This document shows, piece by piece, positions 1-12,224 of a stretch of DNA of 64,000 nt (the stretch's first letter is position 1; each line of letters begins with the position of its first letter). The DNA is from Litorihabitans aurantiacus (GTDB lineage Bacteria > Actinomycetota > Actinomycetes > Actinomycetales > Beutenbergiaceae): contig NZ_BSUM01000001.1 in assembly GCF_030161595.1 (NCBI RefSeq), forward strand, positions 1,364,001 to 1,428,000, given 5' to 3'. A program made the position numbers and the translations under genes. A model generated the notes under the pieces. That model was not told the origin of the DNA. It saw only the letters and a list, made by a program, of their open reading frames with translations, and ran no database searches.

Positions 1-3000
1 TCCACCGCAGTGACGGGAACGTCGGCGAGCGGGTTGTCGACCTCCGCCAGCAGACGGCGGACCGCGTCGACGTCGAGCTCGACGTCGGCCGGCGCCGCGA
101 TCCCGTTGGCGTCCAGCAGCCCGCGCCACATGGCGTCACCGCCGGCGACGCCGGCCAGCGCCGACTCCCGCGTGGGGTAGGCGTCCAGCACCACGAGGAG
201 GGCGACCTCCTCACCGCTGCTGCGCAGCCGTGCCGCCAGGTGCTGCGCGAGCCGGCCGCCGAACGACCACCCCATCAGGTGGTACGGCCCGTGGGGCTGG
301 ACCTCGCGCATCGCCCCGACGTAGCTGTCGAGCAGCTCCTCGATGGTCCCGGCCGTGGGCGGCTCGGGCTGGTCGGGCGCGATGCCCGGCATCTGCAGAC
401 CGAGCAGCGGCCGCCGCGAGGACAGGTGCTGCAGCAGCACGGCGTACTTCCAGCTCAGACCGCTCGCGGGGTGGACGGCGAACAGCGGTGCGCCCGTGCC
501 CTGCTCGCGCAGGGGCAGGATCGTGCGCAGGCTGTCCGCCACGGTCGAACCGGCCCCCTCGCCGGCGGACGCGAGCGCGGCCAGCGCGGCCACGGTCGGC
601 GCCCGGAAGAGCGCCTGCACCGGCAGGTCGCTGCCCAGCGCCTCGTTGACCGCCGCGACGGTCGGCTGGGCCACGAACGAGTGGCCGCCGAGCTCGAAGA
701 AGGAGTCCTCCGCCGAGACCGCCGACTCCCCTCGCCCAGGCCGAGCACCCGGGCGAACGCCGCGGCGACGGCGCGCTCGGCGTCGCCCTCCGGGGCCCGG
801 CCACCGGCCGCCCCCGCGTGCTCCAGCTCGGGCAGAGCGGCCGCGTCGACCTTGCCGTTGCGGGTCAGCGGGACCTCGTCGATCACGCGCACGGCGACCG
901 GGACCATGTAGTCCGGCACGCGCGAGCGCAGGTCGGCGAGCAGGGCGGCGGTGAGGTTCTCGGGCTCTGCGTCGCCGGAGGCGACCACCCACGCCCCGAG
1001 GGCCGTCGCACGCCCGGTGTCGACCGGTCGCACCACGGCCCGCTCCACGCCGTCGGACCGGCGCAGCAGCGCCTCCACCTCACCCGGCTCGACGCGGTGG
1101 CCGCGGATCTTGACCTGGTCGTCGCTGCGGCCGAGGGACACCACGCGGCCGTGGGCGGGTCCGGCGTCGCCCTCGCGGGCGGGCCGCACGGCGACGAGGT
1201 CGCCCGTGCGGTACATCCGGCTCCCGTCGGCGGCGAACGGGTCGGCGACGAACCGCTCCGCGCTCGCCCCGGGGCGACCGGCGTACCCGTGAGCGAGCTG
1301 CTCACCCGCGAGCCACAGCTCACCGACACCGCCCGGCACGGTGGGCCGCAGCGAGGCGTCCAGCACGTAGCCCCGCGTCCCCGGCGTCGTGGCCCCCAGC
1401 ACGGGCGCGTCCGTGTCCGCCACGCGCGCGACGAGCGAGTCGACACCCACCTCCGTCGGGCCGTACAGGTTCCAGGCCTCGACGCCCGTGCGCTCGCGCA
1501 GCCAGTCCCACAGCCCGCCGTCGATCGCCTCGCCGCCCAGCAGGAGCGTGAACGGCGCGTCCGCGGGACGGGAGTCGAGCACGTCGGCGAACGACGTCTG
1601 CGCCACCAGCGCGGCGACGTAGCCCGGCGTGGTCTCCCACGCCGCGACGCCTCGCTCCGCGAACAGGCGCACGAGCGCCTCGGGGTCGCGGCGCACGTCG
1701 TCGGCCACCACGAGCAGCTCGTGACCGGCGGCGAGCCACAGCACGGGGTCCATCGCGGCGTCGAAGCCGACCCCGGTGGTGTGCGCCATCCGCACGCGGC
1801 GGAGCTCGGGGTCGGGCAGCAGCGTGGCCCGGTGCGAGGCGAGCAGGTGCGCCAGCGCGCGGTGCGGCACCTGGACGGCCTTCGGCTCACCGGTCGTGCC
1901 GGAGGTGAACACGAGGTACGCCGGGTCGTCGAGATCCGGCGTCACCGCGGCCCCGGTGTCGTCCGCGGCCTCCGCGACACCGCCCGCTCCCCCGTCACCG
2001 ACGAGGTCGGTGAGGGCGACGACGGCGTCCGGCTCCAGCCCCGCGTCGGCGGCCGCCTCGTGCGAGACGTCGCCGAGCCCGTCGCCGGGTGCCGCCTCGT
2101 CGGCGTGCACGAGCAGCCGGGCGCCCGCCGTCGTGAGCATACGTGCCACCCGCTCGGCGGGCAGCGCGTCGTCGATCGGGGCGACGACAGCCCCGGCGCG
2201 CCACACCCCGAGCAGCGCCGCCACCGTGTCGACCGACCGCGGCAGGCGCAGCGCGACGACGTCGCCGCACGCCACCCCGCGCGCCCGGAGCGCCGAGGCG
2301 AGCGCCGTCACGCGCGCGTCGAGCTCGCCGCGCGTCAGGCGGGACGGCTGCCCCGGGGCCACCGCGGGCCCGGTGACCGCGACCGGTGAGGCGTCCCGGG
2401 CCACGGAGTCCGCGAGGACGTCCAGGACGGTCCGGGCCTCGTGCTCCCCGGCGGGCCACGCGGCCAGAGCGGTGGGGACGCCGGGGATCACGACGTCGCG
2501 CAGGGCGGTGTCGGGGGCCTCGGCGACCGCGCCCAGGAAGGCGAGCCAGCGGTCGACGAGCCCGCGGGCCGCCTCGTCGCTGAACAGCGCGGCGTTGTAC
2601 TCCAGCACGCCGTCCACCGCGCTGTCGGCGCTGACGGCGCCACCGGTCGCACTCGCGCCGCGGCCGCGCGGACGCAGGGTGAACGACAGGTCGACCTTCG
2701 CCGCCCCGGTGGACTCCGGCGGGACAGCACGCGTGGTGACGCCGGGCAGGTCGAGCTGGAGCCCGGTGGGCTCCTCCAGCGACAGCATGGTCTGGAACAG
2801 CGGGTGCCGCCCGAGCCGGCGCTCCGGGGCCAGGGCCTCGACGATGCGCTCGAACGGGACGTCCTCGTGCTCCACCGCGGTCAGCGTCGCCGCGCGCGCC
2901 AGGTCGATGGCGTCGAGCAGCGTCGGGTGGGTGGCAGAGGCCCCGTGGGCACGATCGGTGGGCCGCAGGTCCAGCCGGAGCGGCAGCGTGTTCACGAAGA

Positions 3001-6000
3001 AGCCCACGAGGTCGGCGAGGTCGGGGTCGGTGCGGCCCGCCGAGGGCGACCCGATCACGATGTCGTCGCCCGAACCGATCCGCTGAAGGTACCCGGCCAG
3101 CGCACCGAGCCACGCGTGGAACGCGCTCGCGGAGCGACGCCCGGCCGCCGTGGTCAGGCTCGCCGCGACGTCGGACGGGATCTCGAACTCGAGCAGCCGC
3201 GCGGGCTGCGACGCGGTGTCGGGCCGGGTGCCGTCGGCGGGCAGGTCGAGCTCGGTCGGCACACCGTCCAGCGCGTCCGTCCACACCGCCAGGTCCTGCT
3301 CGGCCGACCCGGTGGCCGTCGCCTCGCGATGCCGCGCGACGTCGGTCACCTGCACGGCGAGCGGTCGCAGCGCGGCCGGTCCGCCGCCCAGCCGCGCGGT
3401 GTAGGCGGCGGCCAGGTCGCCCACCAGCGGGGTCAGCGACGCACCGTCGGTGGCGATGTGGTGGATGACCAGGTCGAGCCGCCACGTGTCGTCACCGGTC
3501 GCCACGACCGCGGCGCGGATCGGGATCTCCGTGCCCAGGTCGAAGCCGGCGGTGAGGTCCACGGCGTCGGAGCCGGCCAGACCCGTCGGTGCCGGTTCGA
3601 TGCGGGCGACCGCCGCGCCGTCGACCTCGGGGTAGGTGGTGCGCAGGACCTCGTGGCGGGCCACCAGGTCGTCGACGGCACCGGCCAGCGCTGCGGTGTC
3701 CAGACCGCCGCGGAGCTCGACCTGCAGGACGACCGAGTACTCCGAGGAGCTGGGGTCGAGCCGGTTGAGGAAGCGCAGGCGCTGCTGGCCCGCGGTCAGC
3801 GGGAGGTCGTCGTCACCGGCGCGCGGGTTCTCCGCGACCCACGCCCGCAGCCGCGGCCGGTCCTGCGACTCCTTCCGCGCGGCACGCGTGCTGGCATCGC
3901 CGGTGTCGTCGGGCCCCGCGCCGCGGACGTGCTCGAGCAGCGCACCCGGCGTCGGGGCGTCGAAGACCGTGCGCAGGGGCAGGTCGGCGCCGAGCTCCTC
4001 CCGGATGCGTGCCACGAGGGCGACGGCGAGGAGCGAGTGTCCGCCGAGGGCGAAGAAGTCGTCGTCGAGACCGACCTCGTCCGCCCCGACGACGTCCCCG
4101 ACGATCGCGCACAGCGCGCGCTCGTCGTCGGTCTCCGGCGCCCGCGCGCTCGTGCGCGCGCCGGGCTCCGGCAGCGCGTCGACGTCGACCTTGCCGTTGG
4201 GCGTGAGGGGCACCGACGCGATCTGCGCCAGCGCCGTCGGGACCATGTACTCCGGCAGCGCCGCCGCGGCGGAGGCGCGCACGGCGTCGAGGTCGAGACC
4301 GTCCGGCTCGCCCCGGCCCACCAGCCACGCAGCCAGGCGCGCGGTCTCGGGGCCGCCGGGCGTGACGACGCGCACGATCGCGGTGGCGACGTCGTCGGCG
4401 CGCTCGAGGGTGCGCTCGACGTCGGCGACCTCGATGCGGTAGCCGCGCAGCTTGATCTGGTCGTCGTCGCGGCGCACGTACTCGAGCTCACCGCTCGCGC
4501 GGCGGCGCACGACGTCGCCGGTGCGGTACATCCGCGTGCCGTCGCCGCGCGGGTCGGCCACGAAGCGCGCGGCCGTCTCGGCGGCGCGGCCCCGGTACCC
4601 GTGGGCCTCGGAGAGGCCGGCCAGGTACAGCTCGCCCTCGACCCCCTCGGGGACGGGCCGCAGCGCGCGGTCCAGGACGCGGGCGGTGACGTTCGCGACC
4701 GGTCGGCCGATCGTGACCCGCCCCGGGGTGATCGGTGCGAGCACCGAGTCCACGGTGAACTCGCTCGGACCGTAGAGGTTCCAACCCGCCACGCCCGGGG
4801 CGTCGGCGAGGCGGTCCCACAGCGCAGCCGGCACGGCCTCGCCGCCGACGGCGACCAGCAGCGGCACCGTGCGGTCCGCGGCCCCCTCGAGCAGGCCGAG
4901 CGTCACGAGCTGCTGGGCGTAGGACGGCGTGGTCTCCAGGACGTCGACGCCGAGCTCGGCCACTGCGCGCACGACCGCCTCGGCGTCGCTCTGCGTCGTC
5001 TCGTCGGCGACGTGGAGCGTGGTGCCGGAGACGAGCCACAGGATCGGGTCCCACGCCGCGTCGAAGGCCAGGCCCGACAGGTGCAGCATGCGGGGCAGCC
5101 GGCCGGAGTCGGCCGCGACGGCGTCGCGCAGCGGCCCGACCAGGACGTCCTCGTGCTGCGCCAGCACGGAGGCCAGCGCGCGGTGCGGCACCTGCACGCC
5201 CTTGGGGCGCCCCGTGGTGCCGGACGTGTGGACGAGGTAGGCCACGTCGTCGAGCGCCGGAAGCGCAGGGAGCGCCGGCGGCTCGGTCTCGTTCGCGTCC
5301 TCGGTCGAGTCCCCGCTCACGAGGCCGTCGGCCGTGCGCAGGTGGGGCACGGACGCGCCCGCGTCCTCGAGCGCCCGCGCCAGCCGCTCCCCGCGCGCGA
5401 CGTCGTCGACCAGCAGCACGGTCGGTGCGGCGTCGGTCAGGACGGTCGTCAGACGCTCGTCGGGGTGAGCGACGTCGAGCGGGACGGCGACGGCGCCGGC
5501 GCGCAGCGCCGCCAGCACGGTCACGACGGCGTCGGCGGTGCGCGGGAGCGCGACGGCGACCCGGTCGCCCGGCGCCGTCCCGAGGCGCACGAGGGCGACG
5601 GCCGCGGTCTCCACCCGGTCCTGGAGCTCGGCGAACGTCAGGGAGCGGTCGACCCCGACGAGCGCGGGCCGGTCGCCGTGCTCGGCCGCGGTGGCCGCCA
5701 GCCGGCCCAGCACGCCGTCGGACACCGGCAGGGTGCGCCCCTCCTCGTGCTCCACCAGGCGTGCGGCGGTCGCGTCGTCGACGACGGGCAGGTCGGACAG
5801 GCGGCGGTCCGCACCGCTCACGAACGCGTCCAGCACTCGGTCGAGCGCGTCGCCCAGCCGCTGCGCCGTGGAGGAGTCGAAGAGCGCGCGGTCGTAGCCG
5901 AGGGCGCCCACGAGGGGGCCGTCCTCGCCGTCGGGCGTGGCGAAGTCGACCAGCAGGTCGGTCTTGACGCCGGCGCTGGTCACCTGGCCCGGGACCGTCA

Positions 6001-9000
6001 CCCGCAGCCCGGCGAGGTCGAGCTCGGCGGGCGCGTTGCTCTGCAGCGTCAGCAGGACCTGGAACAGGGGGTGGCGGTCGGGCACGCGCGGCGGGCGAAG
6101 CGCGTCGACGAGCAGGTCGAAGGGCACGTCCTGGTGGGCGTACGCCTCGGTGTTGCCCTCGCGCACCCGTCGCAGCACCTCCGCGAGCGTCGGGTCCTGC
6201 GCGAGCGAGGTGCGCAGCACCACGGTCGTGACGAAGAAGCCGACGAGCTCGTCGAGGCGCGGGTCGGTGCGCCCCGCGACCGGGGTGCCGACCACGACGT
6301 CCTCCCCGGCGCCCTGCTGCTCGAGAGCGACGGTCAGCGCGGCGTGCAGCACGATGAACAGGCTCGTACGGTGCTCGGCGGCGAGGGCGCGCAGCGCGGC
6401 GTGGCGCTCGGGGTCGAGGACGAGCGGCACCTCGCCGACGCCCCGCTGGGCGGGATCGGCGGCGTCGGCCGTCCCCCGGGCGCGGTCGCGCGGGAGGCTG
6501 ATCTCGTCGGGCGCGCCCGCGAGCGTCCGCCGCCAGTGCTCGACCTGCTCGGCCAGCGCGCTGGTCGGGTCCTCGGGGTCGCCGAGGACCTCGCGCTGCC
6601 ACAGCGTCCAGTCCGCGTACGTCACGGGCAGGGGCGCGAGCTCGGGCTCTCGTCCGTCGATCCGCGCCTCGTAGGCGCGCGAGAGGTCGTGCGCGAACGG
6701 TGCGAGGGACCACCCGTCGGCGGCGATGTGGTGCATGACCACCACGAGGGCGTGCCGGGTCGGCGCGGTGCGCAGCAGCACGGCGCGCAGCGGGGCCTGG
6801 GTCGTGACGTCGAAGGGCCGCAGGGCCTCCTGCTCCACGACGGCGTCGAGCCGCTCGGCGGGAACGTCGACGGCGGTCAGGGAGACGGGCCCGGCACGCA
6901 GGACCACCTGGACCGGCTCCCCGCCGTCGTAGGGCACGACGGTGCGCAGCGGCTCGTGGCGCTCCGCGACGTCGCCCAGGGCGGCCCGCAGCGCGGCCAC
7001 GTCGAGCTCGCCGTCCAGGTGCAGCACGACCGGGATGTTGTAGGCGGCGGACCCGGGCTCGAGCCGGTTGAGGAACCAGAGCCGGCGCTGCGAGTGCGAG
7101 ACGGGCAGGCGTTCGGGGCGGGGCGTCGGGGCGAGTCGCGGTCCCCGTGCCGAGCCTCGGGTGCCGGGGGTGTCGCCGGCGGTCTCGTCGTCGGTCGCGG
7201 TGTCACCGACCGCCCCCGCGAGCAGCGCGACGGTCGGGCGCTGGAAGACGGCACGGACCGTGACGGTGGTCTCGAGCCGGTCCGAGAGCACGGCGGCCAG
7301 CCGCGTCGCCAGGAGGGAGTGACCGCCCGCGGCGAAGAAGTCCTCCTCGATCCCGATCGAGCCGATCTCGAGGACCTCGGCGAAGGCCGCGGCGACGGTG
7401 CGCTCGGCCGCGGTGCGCGGCTGCTGGGAGGCGTCGGCCACGGTGGCCTCCGGGGCGGGCAGCGCGCGCCGGTCCAGCTTGCCGTTCGGCGTGAGCGGCA
7501 GGCTCGAGAGCGTGAGGATGCTGCTGGGGACCATGTAGTCCGGCAGGTCGGCGCGCAGCGCGTCCCGCACGCGGGTGCCGAGGCCGTCGCCACCCTCCCC
7601 CGTGACGTACCCGACGACGCGCGCCGCGGCGCCCTCGCCCTGGACGATCGCGGCGGCGCCGGAGACGTCGCCGTGGCGGCGCATGGCGCTCTCGATCTCG
7701 CTCAGCTCCACGCGGTAGCCACGGATCTTCACCTGGTCGTCGATGCGGCCGAGGAAGCGCAGCGACCCGTCGTGACGGCGTCGCACGACGTCCCCGGTGC
7801 GGTACATCCGGGAGCCGTCGTCGGCGAACGGGTCGGCGACGAAACGCTCGGCGCTCAGGCCGGGCTGCCCGACGTAGCCGCGCGCCACGTTCACGCCCGC
7901 GAGGTAGAGCTCGCCGACGGCGCGGTCGGGGACCGGGTGCAGCGCGGCGTCCAGCACGTAGTGCCGGCTGTTGCGCACCGAGGACCCCAGGTGGGGGTCG
8001 CCCGCGTCGATCGTGGCGATCAGGGAGTCGACCGTGACCTCGGTCGGACCGTAGAAGTTCACGGCGTGGACGTCCTCGTGCGCGGCGAACGCGTCCCACA
8101 GCCCGGGGCCGACCTCCTCGCCGCCGAGGGCCACGACCGTGGGGTGGCGCTCGCCCTCGAAGAGGCCGGTGGACAGGAGCGCCTGGGCGAACGACGGCGT
8201 CGTCTCGATCGAGTCGATGCCGGCCTCGGCGAGGTGGTCCGCCAGGCGCTGCGGGTCGCGCCGCACGTCGTCGTCGATCATGTGCAGCTCGTGACCGGCG
8301 AACAGCCACAGCAGCGGGTCCCACGCGGCGTCGAACGACAGGCCCGCGGTGTGCGCGACGCGCACGGGGCGACCGAGGCGCTCGGCGGCCGGCTCGAACA
8401 GCTCGGCGCGATGGTGCTGGAACAGGTTGCGCAGCGCCACGCGCTCGACCCCGACGCCCTTGGGACGGCCCGTGCTGCCCGAGGTGAAGACCACGTAGCC
8501 GAGCTCGGTGCTCGGCACCGACGGCAGCGTGGTGGCGTCGTCGCTGGCGCGGCGCCAGGCCGTCGCGGTGTCGGCGTCGATCGCCAGCGACGGGGTGGTC
8601 CACGTCGCCCCCGCGTCGCGGTCGCGCCCCGCCTGGCGGTGGCTGGTCAGGAGCAGGACGGGTGCCGCGTCCTCGATCATCCCGGTGACGCGCTCGATCG
8701 GGTACTCGGGGTCGAGCGGGACGTACACCGCGCCCGCCTTGAGCAGGGCGAGCACGATCATCGGCAGGTACCGGCTGCGCTCGATCCGGACGGCGACGGA
8801 CTCCCCCGCCGTGACGCCCTGCGCGAGCAGGTGGTGCGCGAGGCGCGTGGACGCGAGGTCCAGCTCGGCGAGGGTCCAGGTGCCGTCGGGGGCGACGACG
8901 GCGAGGTCGTCGGGCCGCTCGGCGGCCTGCTCGGAGAAGGCGTCGAGCACCGTCTCCTCGCTGATCTGCCGCTCGGGACCGGCACCCTGGGCGATCAGCG

Positions 9001-10387
9001 GGGCGACCTCGTCCTCCGACACGAGCCGGGCGCTGGTCACGGGCATGTCGGCGTCCGCCAGCGCCTGGCCGAGCAGGCCGACGAGTCGCTCGGCGTGCTC
9101 GGTCAGGGTGGCGGTGGTGTGCAGCGCGGCGTCGCCCTCGAGTGCGAGCGTGGCCGTGGCGGCACCGCTGTCCAGGCCCGAGACGACGACCGACAGGTCG
9201 TGGACGGGACCGGTGGAGAGGATGCGGACCTCACCGGTCGCCTCGCCGAGCGTGAGCTGGTCGATGACCGGGAGCAGGTTGACCGAGGGTCCGGGCTGCG
9301 CCGGTGCCGTCGGGAGGTCGTCCGTGCGGAAGCGCTGGTGCTTCACGACGGCGCGCACGACGTCGCCGGCGTGCGCGACGGTCTCGGCGATCGTCGCCGA
9401 ACCGGGGACGTCGAGGTGCATCGGGAGGATGCTGGAGAGCATCGACGGCGTGGCCTTCGCGACCTTCCCGCGGCGCGCCGTCACCGGCAGCCCGAGCGAG
9501 ACGGAGTCCTGCCCGGTGATCCGGGCGAGGTAGAGCGCGACGACACCCACCACGGTCTTCGGCAGGTCGCGGCCCATGTCGGCGAGCGGCCGTGCCAGCG
9601 CCTTCGTGAGCGGGACGTCGACCCGGACGACGCGCGAGGCGGGACGCCCGGTCGTGCCCTCGAGCCCCTCGACCGTCGACTCGCGGTCGAACGCCTCCCG
9701 CCAGAACGCCTCGTCCTGCGCGTGCTCGTCGGAGGAGCGGTACTCCTCGAGCGCCCCGAGCAGCTCGGTGTGGGAGGGGAACGGCGAGGCCGTGCGCGCG
9801 GCGGTGCGCGCGACGCGGCCGGTGAGGAGTCGCAGGAGCGGCCCGGACGGCGCCCGCTTCGCCAGCTCGGTGTACACGCGGGCGAGGTAGTGCAGCGCGA
9901 TGACGGCCGAGTACCCGTCGAGGGCGACGTGGTGCACGCGCTGGAACAGCAGCGAGCGGCCACCCGCGAGACGGAACAGGACGGCGCCGAAGAGCTCCTC
10001 GCCGGCGAGGTCGCGCGGCGTGGCCATCTCCTCGTCCATCCGCGCCCGGGCACGCTCCCGTGCGACGTCGGCGTCGACGTCGCGCAGGTCGACGACCTCG
10101 AGCAGGTCGTCGGTGGGCTCGGGGCGGCGCAGCACCGCGTACGGTCCGTCCGCGTCGGAGCGGAAGCGCATGCTGAGGGAGTCGATGTCGCGGACGGTCT
10201 TGGTGACCGCGATGCTCAGCAGCCGCGGGTCGAGATCGCCGGCGACGTCGAGGTACTGGCCGATCTGGTAGGTCGGGTTGTCGGGGTCGAGATCCTGGGC
10301 GTACCAGAGCCCGCGCTGCGCGGGGGTGAGGGTGAGGCGGTCGTCGGGGGCGGTCTCGGTCAGGGGCGTCTGATCGTTGGTCGTCAC
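1..10387 (-). CDS. Trimodular non-ribosomal peptide synthetase, C-A-T-C-A-T-C-A-T-TE (3' end outside window)
   Basis: Assembles a short peptide on carrier domains and releases it with a type I thioesterase. Module 1 spans about residues 1-1085, module 2 to about 2160, module 3 to about 3245, then TE. Condensation motifs are HHVALDG (about 152), HHIAADG and HHIATDG. The adenylation domains carry TSGSTGRPKG or TSGTTG(R/E)PK, YGPTE or YGPSE, and YRTGD. Carrier motifs are GGHSLLA twice and LGGHSFVA. The TE has GWSFGG (plus-strand 258-281). The first C domain opens the protein and resembles EntF/DhbF-type C domains that accept an aryl or acyl starter from a separate carrier, so a siderophore is possible (inference). 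No epimerase or methyltransferase domain was seen. The frame breaks at the CCCC run 728-731; one added base restores the third carrier domain and TE. The GTG start follows AAGAGAG. A-domain specificity was not assigned. Confidence 0.93.
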
Positions 10388-10406: not shown

Positions 10407-10438
10407 CGAGGCCCCGCCCTTGAGGGGGCGGGGCCTCG
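10407..10438 (-). terminator. GC-rich hairpin between the peptide gene and the NRPS
   Basis: Perfect 13-bp arms (10407-10419 and 10426-10438) flank a 6-nt loop, with no clear T-tract. It lies downstream of the small peptide gene and about 20 nt upstream of the NRPS start on the same strand. It could end the peptide transcript or act as an attenuator for the NRPS. Confidence 0.7.
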
Positions 10439-10495: not shown

Positions 10496-10597
10496 CTACT
10501 GGAACTGACCGATCTGCAGGAAGTTCAGGATGCCGCCGATGTCGACCAGCGGGCCCTGGACGAGCGGGCCTTCGATGAGTGCGTTCCACATCTCCAC
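10496..10597 (-). CDS. Small acidic amphipathic peptide (33 aa), unknown function
   Basis: A short frame begins GTG GAG ATG and ends TAG. GAAGGAG lies at 10604-10610, 6 nt before the GTG, which is excellent spacing; the in-frame ATG at 10591 is the alternative start. The product has no Lys, Arg, His or Cys, three acidic residues and a net charge near -3. It contains the internal repeat GPLVQGPLV and a hydrophobic C-terminus (ILNFLQIGQFQ). There is no signal peptide or RiPP-like core with Cys/Ser/Thr. It sits upstream of the NRPS on the same strand, separated by a strong hairpin, and is divergent from the deacetylase. I do not recognise a family. A membrane-active or pore-type helix, a signalling peptide or a leader peptide are all possible. 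Confidence 0.6.
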   Translation of the reverse strand: MEMWNALIEGPLVQGPLVDIGGILNFLQIGQFQ

Positions 10598-10653
10598 GGG
10601 GAGCTCCTTCGTACGTCTCGTTGCCTGCCCCGGTCGGGGCCTCACGAGGGGTT

Positions 10654-10673
10654 CGGAACCGTCCGCGGTTCCG
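10654..10673. promoter_or_regulatory. 8-bp inverted repeat upstream of the peptide gene
   Basis: CGGAACCG and CGGTTCCG form perfect arms with a 4-nt loop. The repeat lies 57 nt upstream of the peptide start and 64 nt upstream of the divergent deacetylase start. Its position suits an operator or a 5' UTR hairpin. No regulator can be assigned. Confidence 0.4.
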
Positions 10674-10736: not shown

Positions 10737-12224
10737 ATGAGGGGGCGTCTCAGGAACCTGTCGATCGCGTGCGCCACGGCGCTGGCACTCACCGCGTGCA
10801 CGCCGGCGGCCCCGCCGCCGGAGGAGGACTCGGGGCCACCACCGACGTCCCCGACGCCGACCTCCTCCCCGGGGCAGCCGATCGAGCGGATCGCCGCGCC
10901 GTCCCTCTCGGACGAGCTCGTGCCCGGCCTCGAGCTCGTGTCGGAGACGGACGAGGACCTGCGGATCTACACGCAGCACGCGGTCGTGCCCGGGGCCGAG
11001 GACCTGTCGGCCGCCCTGGCGGACTACGCGTCGCAGGCGCGGGAGGCCTACCTCCCGGTCGCCGAGTCGGCCGTCGAGGCGGGCGACGTCGAGAACCTCC
11101 CCGACCTCAACGTCCGTCCGGCCCTGGTCGGGTCCGCACCCGACGTGCTCGGCGTGCGCATGACGACCTACCAGTTCTCCGAGGACACGGGGACCGCGAA
11201 CGCCCGGACGTGGTGGGTCGACGGCGGCGACCTGCTCGACTCGGCAGACCTCTTCGCGACTCCGGAGGCCTTCACCGAGTTCGGTGACCTCGTGATGGCG
11301 GACCTCGAGGCACGTGAGCTGGGCCCCTGGGCGCCGGACGACGAGCCCACGCGTCAGCTCACCTCCATCACGTTCACCGACGGCGATCCGGTCGCCGAGC
11401 TCCCCGCCGGCGCTCTGACCGCCGCCGCGGCGGGTTCGCTCACCGTCCGCATTCCGGCCGGCGAGCTGCTGTCCGACGCCGGGCGGCGCGCGGCCGCCGC
11501 CGTCGCCGATCCGCAGCCCTACGACACCGGGCAGGTCGCACCGACCTCGCCGCCGCAGGAGTCGACGCCCCCGCCGTCGGCCTCGCCGACCGATGACCCG
11601 CCGTCGTCCGACGTGGACTGCGCGCAGGTCGCGTGCGTCGCCCTCACCTACGACGACGGGCCCTCCGCGAGCCTGACGCCCCAGCTCCTGGATGTGCTCG
11701 CGGAGCGCGGCGTGCCCGCCACCTTCTTCCTGCTGGGCTCCTCCGTCGAGAGCCACCCGGGGGTGGCCGCCCGGATCGCGCAGGAGGGCCACGAGATCGC
11801 CAACCACACGTTCTCCCACCGCGACCTCACCAACCTCGACCCGACCGAGCGGGCGGCGGAGATCGCCGACACGACCGCCGCGATCGAGTCCGCGACCGGC
11901 GTGACGCCGACGCTGGTGCGGCCGCCGTACGGCGCTCAGGACGACGCCGTCGTGGCCGAGTCCGGCATGGTGGTGGTGACGTGGGACGTCGACACCGAGG
12001 ACTGGTCGAACCGCGATGCGGCGGTCACGACCGACACCGCGCTGGCGGGCGTCGAGGCCGGGTCCATCATCCTCATGCACGACATCCACCCGAGCACGAT
12101 CGAGGCGGCGCCGGGCCTGATCGACGCGCTCGAGGCCGAGGGCTACACGCTCGTCACGGTGTCCGACATCCTCGCGCCGCTCGATCCGGCGCCCGGCACG
12201 CTGGTCTCGCGCGGGGCGTCCTGA
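10737..12224 (+). CDS. Polysaccharide deacetylase lipoprotein (NodB/CE4 family)
   Basis: A predicted surface metal-dependent deacetylase of N-acetylated glycans, possibly peptidoglycan. The N-terminus is a lipoprotein signal with lipobox LTAC at about residues 18-21, followed by a Pro/Thr/Ser linker. The middle (about 50-270) looks like the accessory domain of PdaC-type deacetylases. A second Pro/Ser linker precedes the NodB domain (about 300-480). All five NodB motifs are visible: TYDDGP (metal Asp), HTFSH (metal His pair), RPPYG, WDVDTEDW, and LMHDIH. The total of 495 aa fits the two-domain form. It is divergent from the peptide gene and convergent with the flavoprotein that follows, with only 3 nt between them. 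Substrate is not determined. Confidence 0.9.
   Translation: MRGRLRNLSIACATALALTACTPAAPPPEEDSGPPPTSPTPTSSPGQPIERIAAPSLSDELVPGLELVSETDEDLRIYTQHAVVPGAEDLSAALADYASQAREAYLPVAESAVEAGDVENLPDLNVRPALVGSAPDVLGVRMTTYQFSEDTGTANARTWWVDGGDLLDSADLFATPEAFTEFGDLVMADLEARELGPWAPDDEPTRQLTSITFTDGDPVAELPAGALTAAAAGSLTVRIPAGELLSDAGRRAAAAVADPQPYDTGQVAPTSPPQESTPPPSASPTDDPPSSDVDCAQVACVALTYDDGPSASLTPQLLDVLAERGVPATFFLLGSSVESHPGVAARIAQEGHEIANHTFSHRDLTNLDPTERAAEIADTTAAIESATGVTPTLVRPPYGAQDDAVVAESGMVVVTWDVDTEDWSNRDAAVTTDTALAGVEAGSIILMHDIHPSTIEAAPGLIDALEAEGYTLVTVSDILAPLDPAPGTLVSRGAS

Follow-up and report, generated by a model that had tools for sequence, protein, structure and literature searches.

The window, i.e. the whole stretch of 64,000 nucleotides that was analysed, carries on its minus strand a 33-codon frame and, 108 nt after its stop codon, the GTG of a large NRPS gene (Table 1). 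The earlier note on this DNA had taken the frame for a real short gene beside the NRPS, with a near-ideal Shine-Dalgarno sequence, a GPLV repeat and neither basic residues nor Cys, and all of this holds for the window peptide: the ribosome-binding motif and the repeat are present, and the translated frame contains no Lys, Arg, His or Cys among its 33 residues. An alternative ATG lies at 10591; the start codon is GTG in the window and in the same-genus genome G001, and ATG in Serinibacter arcticus, Sanguibacter inulinus and G207. As homologues that share both tail and neighbour recur in many genera, the frame is, judged from sequence comparison, a real, previously unlisted gene, far beyond chance. 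Neither Rfam, run on the whole window, nor a search of plasmid sequences with the window peptide gave a match. The divergent neighbour on the plus strand (10737-12224) encodes a polysaccharide deacetylase with a lipoprotein-like start; in S. arcticus (L069) its place is taken by another frame, which lies on the strand of the peptide gene and terminates shortly before it. ARAGORN places a tRNA-Ser at 5222-5302 on the plus strand, opposite the NRPS frame, which is probably a false positive.

Table 1. Features of the peptide-NRPS locus; positions refer to the window unless a locus is named.
Feature	Position	Strand	Remarks
Thioesterase end of NRPS	1..719	minus	other frame; continues past the left edge of the window
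NRPS open frame	455..10387	minus	3310 aa, three C-A-T modules
Hairpin	10407..10438	minus	13 bp, G+C-rich, between the peptide gene and the NRPS gene; like a terminator, but lacking a T run; kept in 4 aligned loci
33-aa peptide gene	10496..10597	minus	GTG start 10597, TAG stop 10496; product VEMWNALIEGPLVQGPLVDIGGILNFLQIGQFQ, tail GQFQ
Shine-Dalgarno sequence AAGGAG	10604..10609	minus	6 nt 5' of the GTG; kept in 4 aligned loci
Inverted repeat GGAACCG/CGGTTCC	10655..10672	minus	upstream of the peptide gene; arms not conserved in 4 aligned loci
DrrA	L021 18378-19607	minus	outside the window, after the NRPS; passes the TIGR01188 cut-off
DrrB-like permease	L021 17452-18432	minus	outside the window; ABC-2 protein below the drrB cut-off

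The strong hairpin that the earlier note had seen after the peptide gene begins 57 nt past the peptide stop, just ahead of the NRPS ribosome site; it is better than all of 100 dinucleotide shuffles, and the stretch from the peptide stop to the NRPS start folds at a z of -4.2. The inverted repeat noted upstream is likewise present in the window, but its arms are not kept in the aligned relatives, where a conserved TCCGAACCC-type block overlaps merely the end of the start-proximal arm (four aligned loci).

When the 33-residue sequence was used as a query against 199 relatives, near-identical frames (88%) were found in the same-genus genomes G001 and G002 and weaker matches in other families, several of which turned out to be the C-terminal ends of longer, Sec-like frames with the C domain of an NRPS directly after. 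The conserved frame in relatives, on which the earlier note had let the gene stand or fall, is thus there, and the gene stands. Among 396 genomes of the order, a nine-row peptide profile matched 20 strongly (E ≤ 6.5e-8), after which there is a gap to E 1e-3, and among 394 genomes across the class the sole strong match was the window's own genome. With a profile built on the NRPS's first C domain, 20 of these 396 genomes were likewise picked up (E 1e-35), and the two sets coincide in 19. The odd cases are G318, where the NRPS stands right at the beginning of one contig and a weak peptide match (E 0.0014, ...LKFGQFQ) at the edge of another, and G227 (locus L048), which shares its genus with several peptide carriers and holds apparent remnants of both genes, so that peptide and NRPS look decayed together.

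The same picture emerges from a named collection, in which a pattern matched 317 stretches, of which 257 encoded relatives; the 80 best loci were retained. In a tree of the best 80 loci and the window, a clade of 48 rows has a support of 100/100, and a peptide ending in GQFQ, in a few cases with up to two further residues, precedes the NRPS in 46 of its 48 rows, i.e. in the window and in 45 of 45 testable loci; L091 and L105 were left out of this count, as their sequence begins 3 and 72 nt upstream (contig edges). The peptide lies ~83-279 nt ahead of the first C-domain motif in clade loci, and no GQFQ was found upstream in the 33 tree rows outside the clade. Comparison of these loci shows that the linkage of the peptide to one NRPS clade is near-perfect, and as almost all sampled genomes of the order that have the NRPS also have some form of the peptide, the two probably work together.

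To judge from these alignments, the window peptide belongs to a hitherto undescribed family of peptides with a GQFQ tail, of which 48 members were compiled, namely those of the 45 loci, of the window, of G001 and of G371. By a crude rule, which looks for a basic residue and a small-x-small site and is not SignalP, 40 of the 48 have Sec-like N-termini, five are short and leaderless (33-37 aa: the window, G001, S. arcticus, S. inulinus and Agrococcus baldri) and three are neither. Sizes range from 33 to 107 aa and 19/48 start with GTG, the start codons being chosen by the strength of the Shine-Dalgarno sequence; in L114 this rule picked an internal ATG, and a longer GTG frame exists. Over the 38 of the 48 peptides that were aligned, G15, G30, Q31, F32 and Q33 (window numbering) are invariant, GPL(V/I)x repeats well upstream of the tail are also conserved, and the tail has no conserved Lys, Cys or Ser. 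One or two residues follow GQFQ in six of the 48. The last 27 residues are net negative in 46/48, contain Cys in none and Lys or Arg in seven, i.e. in this part the absence of Cys described for the window peptide extends to all 48, but the absence of basic residues does not.

Within genera, pN/pS over the last 26 codons (Nei-Gojobori) lies between 0 and 0.40 in 26 of 31 pairs, the remaining five comprising three identical pairs and two with no synonymous change. The signal is weaker, 0.19-0.92, when the window, G001, S. arcticus, S. inulinus and G207 are compared with one another (ten pairs, few sites). These codon comparisons show that the peptide is under purifying selection at the protein level. 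No family of Pfam or NCBIfam fits the window peptide or four homologues, the few matches up to E 1 being far below the curated cut-offs, and AlphaFold2 gives no fold and only one short helix (pLDDT 64, pTM 0.15).

The operon reads peptide, NRPS (C-A-T x3-TE) and Drr-type exporter. DrrA adjoins the NRPS in 26 of 27 mapped loci, with L097 as the exception; 28 genomes were searched, L084 was left out because the contig ends, and a partial DrrA is present in the matching genome G067. Across nine clusters from four groups of genera, with short flanks, nothing beyond peptide, NRPS and Drr recurs between groups, including any donor carrier protein or activating ligase beside the NRPS. The transglutaminase PF09017 matched none of 17 genomes, but as the control gave no match either, this proves little on Gln cross-linking.

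The NRPSs of the family that were read to the end consist of C-A-T x3 plus TE, in keeping with a C-A-T x3-TE enzyme with a Drr exporter, although in some the domain motifs failed to pick up individual domains and a few of the frames contain interruptions. In the window a single frameshift at ~782-719 puts the last carrier/TE part out of frame, and the G001 gene (L022), otherwise colinear, has one at a different place, ~residue 537, so that the operon may be failing in these two, or the assemblies may be in error. Most modules that were read have the specificity code DAWEAG[LF]VDK or near variants, and the last module of several genera, including that of the window, has DAMELGLVDK, DALELGLVDK or DAIELGLVDK; the codes were read against the GrsA numbering, and one A domain was missed in some enzymes, among them the second of the window. 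The nearest printed code that we found is DAWEGGLVDK, reported as the hydroxyornithine code of scabichelin (PMC7692728). The Orn/Lys hydroxylase PF13434, searched at E 1e-10, has no match in the peptide-bearing genomes G000, G002 and G207, which rules out a hydroxyornithine monomer made by the usual route there. Among 32 genomes, peptide carriers as well as non-carriers, it occurs in 28, is absent also from G182, which has no peptide, and is weak in G001; being scattered in this way, the hydroxylase does not track the operon. From the codes, the NRPS would join three similar monomers that are probably ornithine-like or otherwise polar.

The first module of the window NRPS resembles EntF, DhbF and MxcG: the EntF chain 5ja1 aligns over residues 17-1061, 5u89, a DhbF fragment, is the best PDB match (476-1532), the terminal domain is a TE, and the NCBIfam models EntF and MxcG match below their cut-offs. 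Unlike these systems, it has three near-identical codes, no PF13434 in the three peptide-bearing genomes, no 2,3-DHB ligase over the cut-off and no DtxR-like box. The ligase model TIGR02275 exceeded its cut-off of 723.55 in none of 28 genomes; it matched below the cut-off in eight, most strongly in the peptide-bearing G371 (576 bits) and in G130 (579 bits). Against a DtxR consensus, the best DtxR-like boxes in the 48 loci agree at 9-12 of 19 positions and have no fixed place. With no hydroxylase in those three genomes, no DHB ligase over the cut-off and no DtxR box, a siderophore reading of the NRPS was rejected. The first C domain retains its HHxxxDG motif. About 20 residues past the first motif of this domain, a strand reads YQIGQY and is thus similar to LQIGQFQ, the tail of the peptide. 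The idea that the tail mimics this C domain was considered and rejected: strand and tail do not co-vary (QIGLY vs NIGQF in Brevibacterium, NIAEY/AIAEY vs IGNYQ in Nocardiopsis), so the likeness is probably a coincidence.

Outside the clade, the same place ahead of some related NRPSs is taken by other secreted peptides or proteins. In three Nocardiopsis loci and G430 (L113, L115, L118, L169) a secreted peptide ending in IGNYQINH or IGNYQVRN precedes the same type of NRPS; for G430 just the NRPS start was read, and the GNYQ search matched three of 394 genomes at E 0.01, the other two weakly. Directly upstream of the NRPS in four Nocardioides loci (L110, L112, L117, L123) lies the gene for a secreted, Gln-rich protein of ~150-180 aa with QQQ-rich stretches and repeats of the SQLLGAQQQD type; the stop codon of this gene and the presumed start of the NRPS overlap, as ATGA in three loci and as TTGA in the fourth. 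One of the Nocardioides and two of the Nocardiopsis proteins were compared with Pfam and NCBIfam and matched no family there. Only a short similarity of the tails suggests that the GNYQ peptides and the Gln-rich proteins are homologous to the GQFQ peptides. In Streptomyces physcomitrii (L147), by contrast, DrrA and two codes of the DAWEAG type are present, but no such peptide was found within 1.5 kb upstream, and two crude scans found none in the other 25 rows outside the clade.

What the peptide does may be approached by weighing several explanations. According to the earlier note it could be a leader peptide that controls the NRPS through the hairpin, i.e. a cis-acting leader or arrest peptide that would govern NRPS translation or transcription and whose product would be inert in trans. 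Its position, a tail conserved to or near the stop and the N-terminal signal are reminiscent of the Sec-monitoring arrest peptides SecM, MifM and VemP, in which a signal and a conserved C-terminus likewise lie just upstream of a gene, and a strong stem, beating at least 99 of 100 shuffles, stands between peptide and NRPS in 23 of the 48 loci. These stems, however, comprise several unrelated sequences, suggesting that a partial terminator was selected for more than once, eight Brevibacterium, three Brachybacterium and three Curtobacterium loci yielded none with p ≤ 0.02 (best L093, p 0.03), and the intergenic regions, 47-215 nt long, share no common structure. What is conserved is the amino-acid sequence and not a coupling RNA structure: pN/pS is low, the tail is invariant across genera, the GPL repeats are maintained far from it, and most N-termini are Sec-like. 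In addition, residues after the tail are tolerated, leaderless versions exist and the Nocardioides counterpart is far too long. As the upstream genes vary in length and kind, have export signals and are conserved at the protein level, we regard a leader role as quite unlikely. A secreted pheromone, whose tail would act as an autoinducer, signal export and turn on the NRPS operon, would accord with a Sec-like N-terminus and a short conserved C-terminus ahead of a biosynthetic operon. Pheromones usually diversify, however, whereas GQFQ is invariant over many genera, none of the nine clusters offers a further recurring gene within the short flanks, and a larger Gln-rich protein occupies the same place in Nocardioides; the constancy of the tail in particular makes this explanation improbable.

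The order of precursor, hairpin, enzyme and exporter is also that of RiPP operons, and one may imagine a ribosomal-nonribosomal hybrid, in which the product of the NRPS would be linked covalently to the peptide, by the NRPS itself or by its TE. An intact HHxxxDG motif in the first C domain, together with the missing recurrent donor carrier protein and the lack of a DHB ligase over the cut-off in 28 genomes, would accord with such a hybrid, but Lys, Cys and Ser are not conserved in the tail, the short flanks contain no recurrent activating ligase, and Sec-signalled peptides exit the cytosol, where the NRPS works; we consider covalent joining unlikely. In contrast to RiPP operons the enzyme here is an NRPS, no other enzyme recurs, and most members have a Sec-like signal and no modification leader. 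The earlier note had further compared the peptide with PorA/PorH- or modulin-type membrane peptides, and an autonomous, amphipathic membrane-active peptide that merely shares the operon would agree with the small, hydrophobic and acidic character of the window form and with the five leaderless members. Unlike PorA/PorH and the staphylococcal modulins, the family has Gly/Pro-rich repeats, mostly Sec signals and no confident helix; membership found no match up to E 1 in Pfam or NCBIfam, libraries that may hold no such models. The tight linkage to the NRPS speaks against autonomy, which is a distinctly improbable reading. EntF-like NRPSs are often helped by MbtH, and a cytosolic helper in this manner would explain why a small protein is obligately linked to an NRPS. 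No sequence similarity to MbtH was found (Pfam, window peptide and four homologues), the architecture is that of repeats plus tail, and most members carry export signals, which renders a cytosolic helper very improbable.

With the pheromone, leader and membrane-peptide readings disfavoured, we tentatively favour an exported partner, i.e. the peptide may quite possibly be a small, obligate ribosomal partner of the NRPS product. The peptide would be made in excess over the NRPS, with the intercistronic hairpin serving as partial terminator; hairpins of this kind are common in precursor-peptide operons. It would leave the cytoplasm by Sec, whereas the leaderless form of Serinibacter and Sanguibacter might exit by membrane insertion or through the Drr exporter. 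Outside, it would bind the small NRPS-made peptide of three similar monomers, with the conserved GPL(V/I)x repeat and the free GQFQ end as the presumed recognition part, and act as carrier, neutraliser or co-active component of the NRPS product. The linkage, the Sec-like N-termini, the invariant and net-negative tails, the selection, Drr in the operon, the hairpin and the counterparts ahead of related NRPSs are all consistent with an exported partner. Against it stand the missing signal peptide of the window form, for which export has to be assumed, locus L147 with NRPS codes and DrrA but no peptide found, the lack of a strong hairpin in about half of the loci and of an adjacent DrrA in L097, the frameshifts in the NRPSs of the window and G001, and the weaker selection signal in the nearest relatives of the window. 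In addition, the monomer is guessed, hydroxyornithine misfitting the genomes with no PF13434, and AlphaFold2, in giving no fold, lends the binding idea no structural support.

More broadly, it is possible, if rather doubtful, that we are dealing with a two-part secretion system, in which one operon would supply a ribosomal and a nonribosomal peptide that work only together outside the cell, the ribosomal part (GQFQ, GNYQ or Gln-rich repeat proteins) fitting the product of its NRPS in each of several orders of actinobacteria.

Among the papers listed by searches of the open-access PMC library none recognisably describes such a peptide, and no record of the NRPS product was found.

An NRPS cluster is commonly taken to be an assembly line complete in itself. 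The peptide, in contrast, would be a component of an NRPS clade that gene callers can miss, as its members have only 33-107 codons, often start with GTG and, in those scanned, match neither Pfam nor NCBIfam. It would give a direct handle on the function of a widespread NRPS, and the pairing of peptide and NRPS would supply a rule for finding more such pairs.
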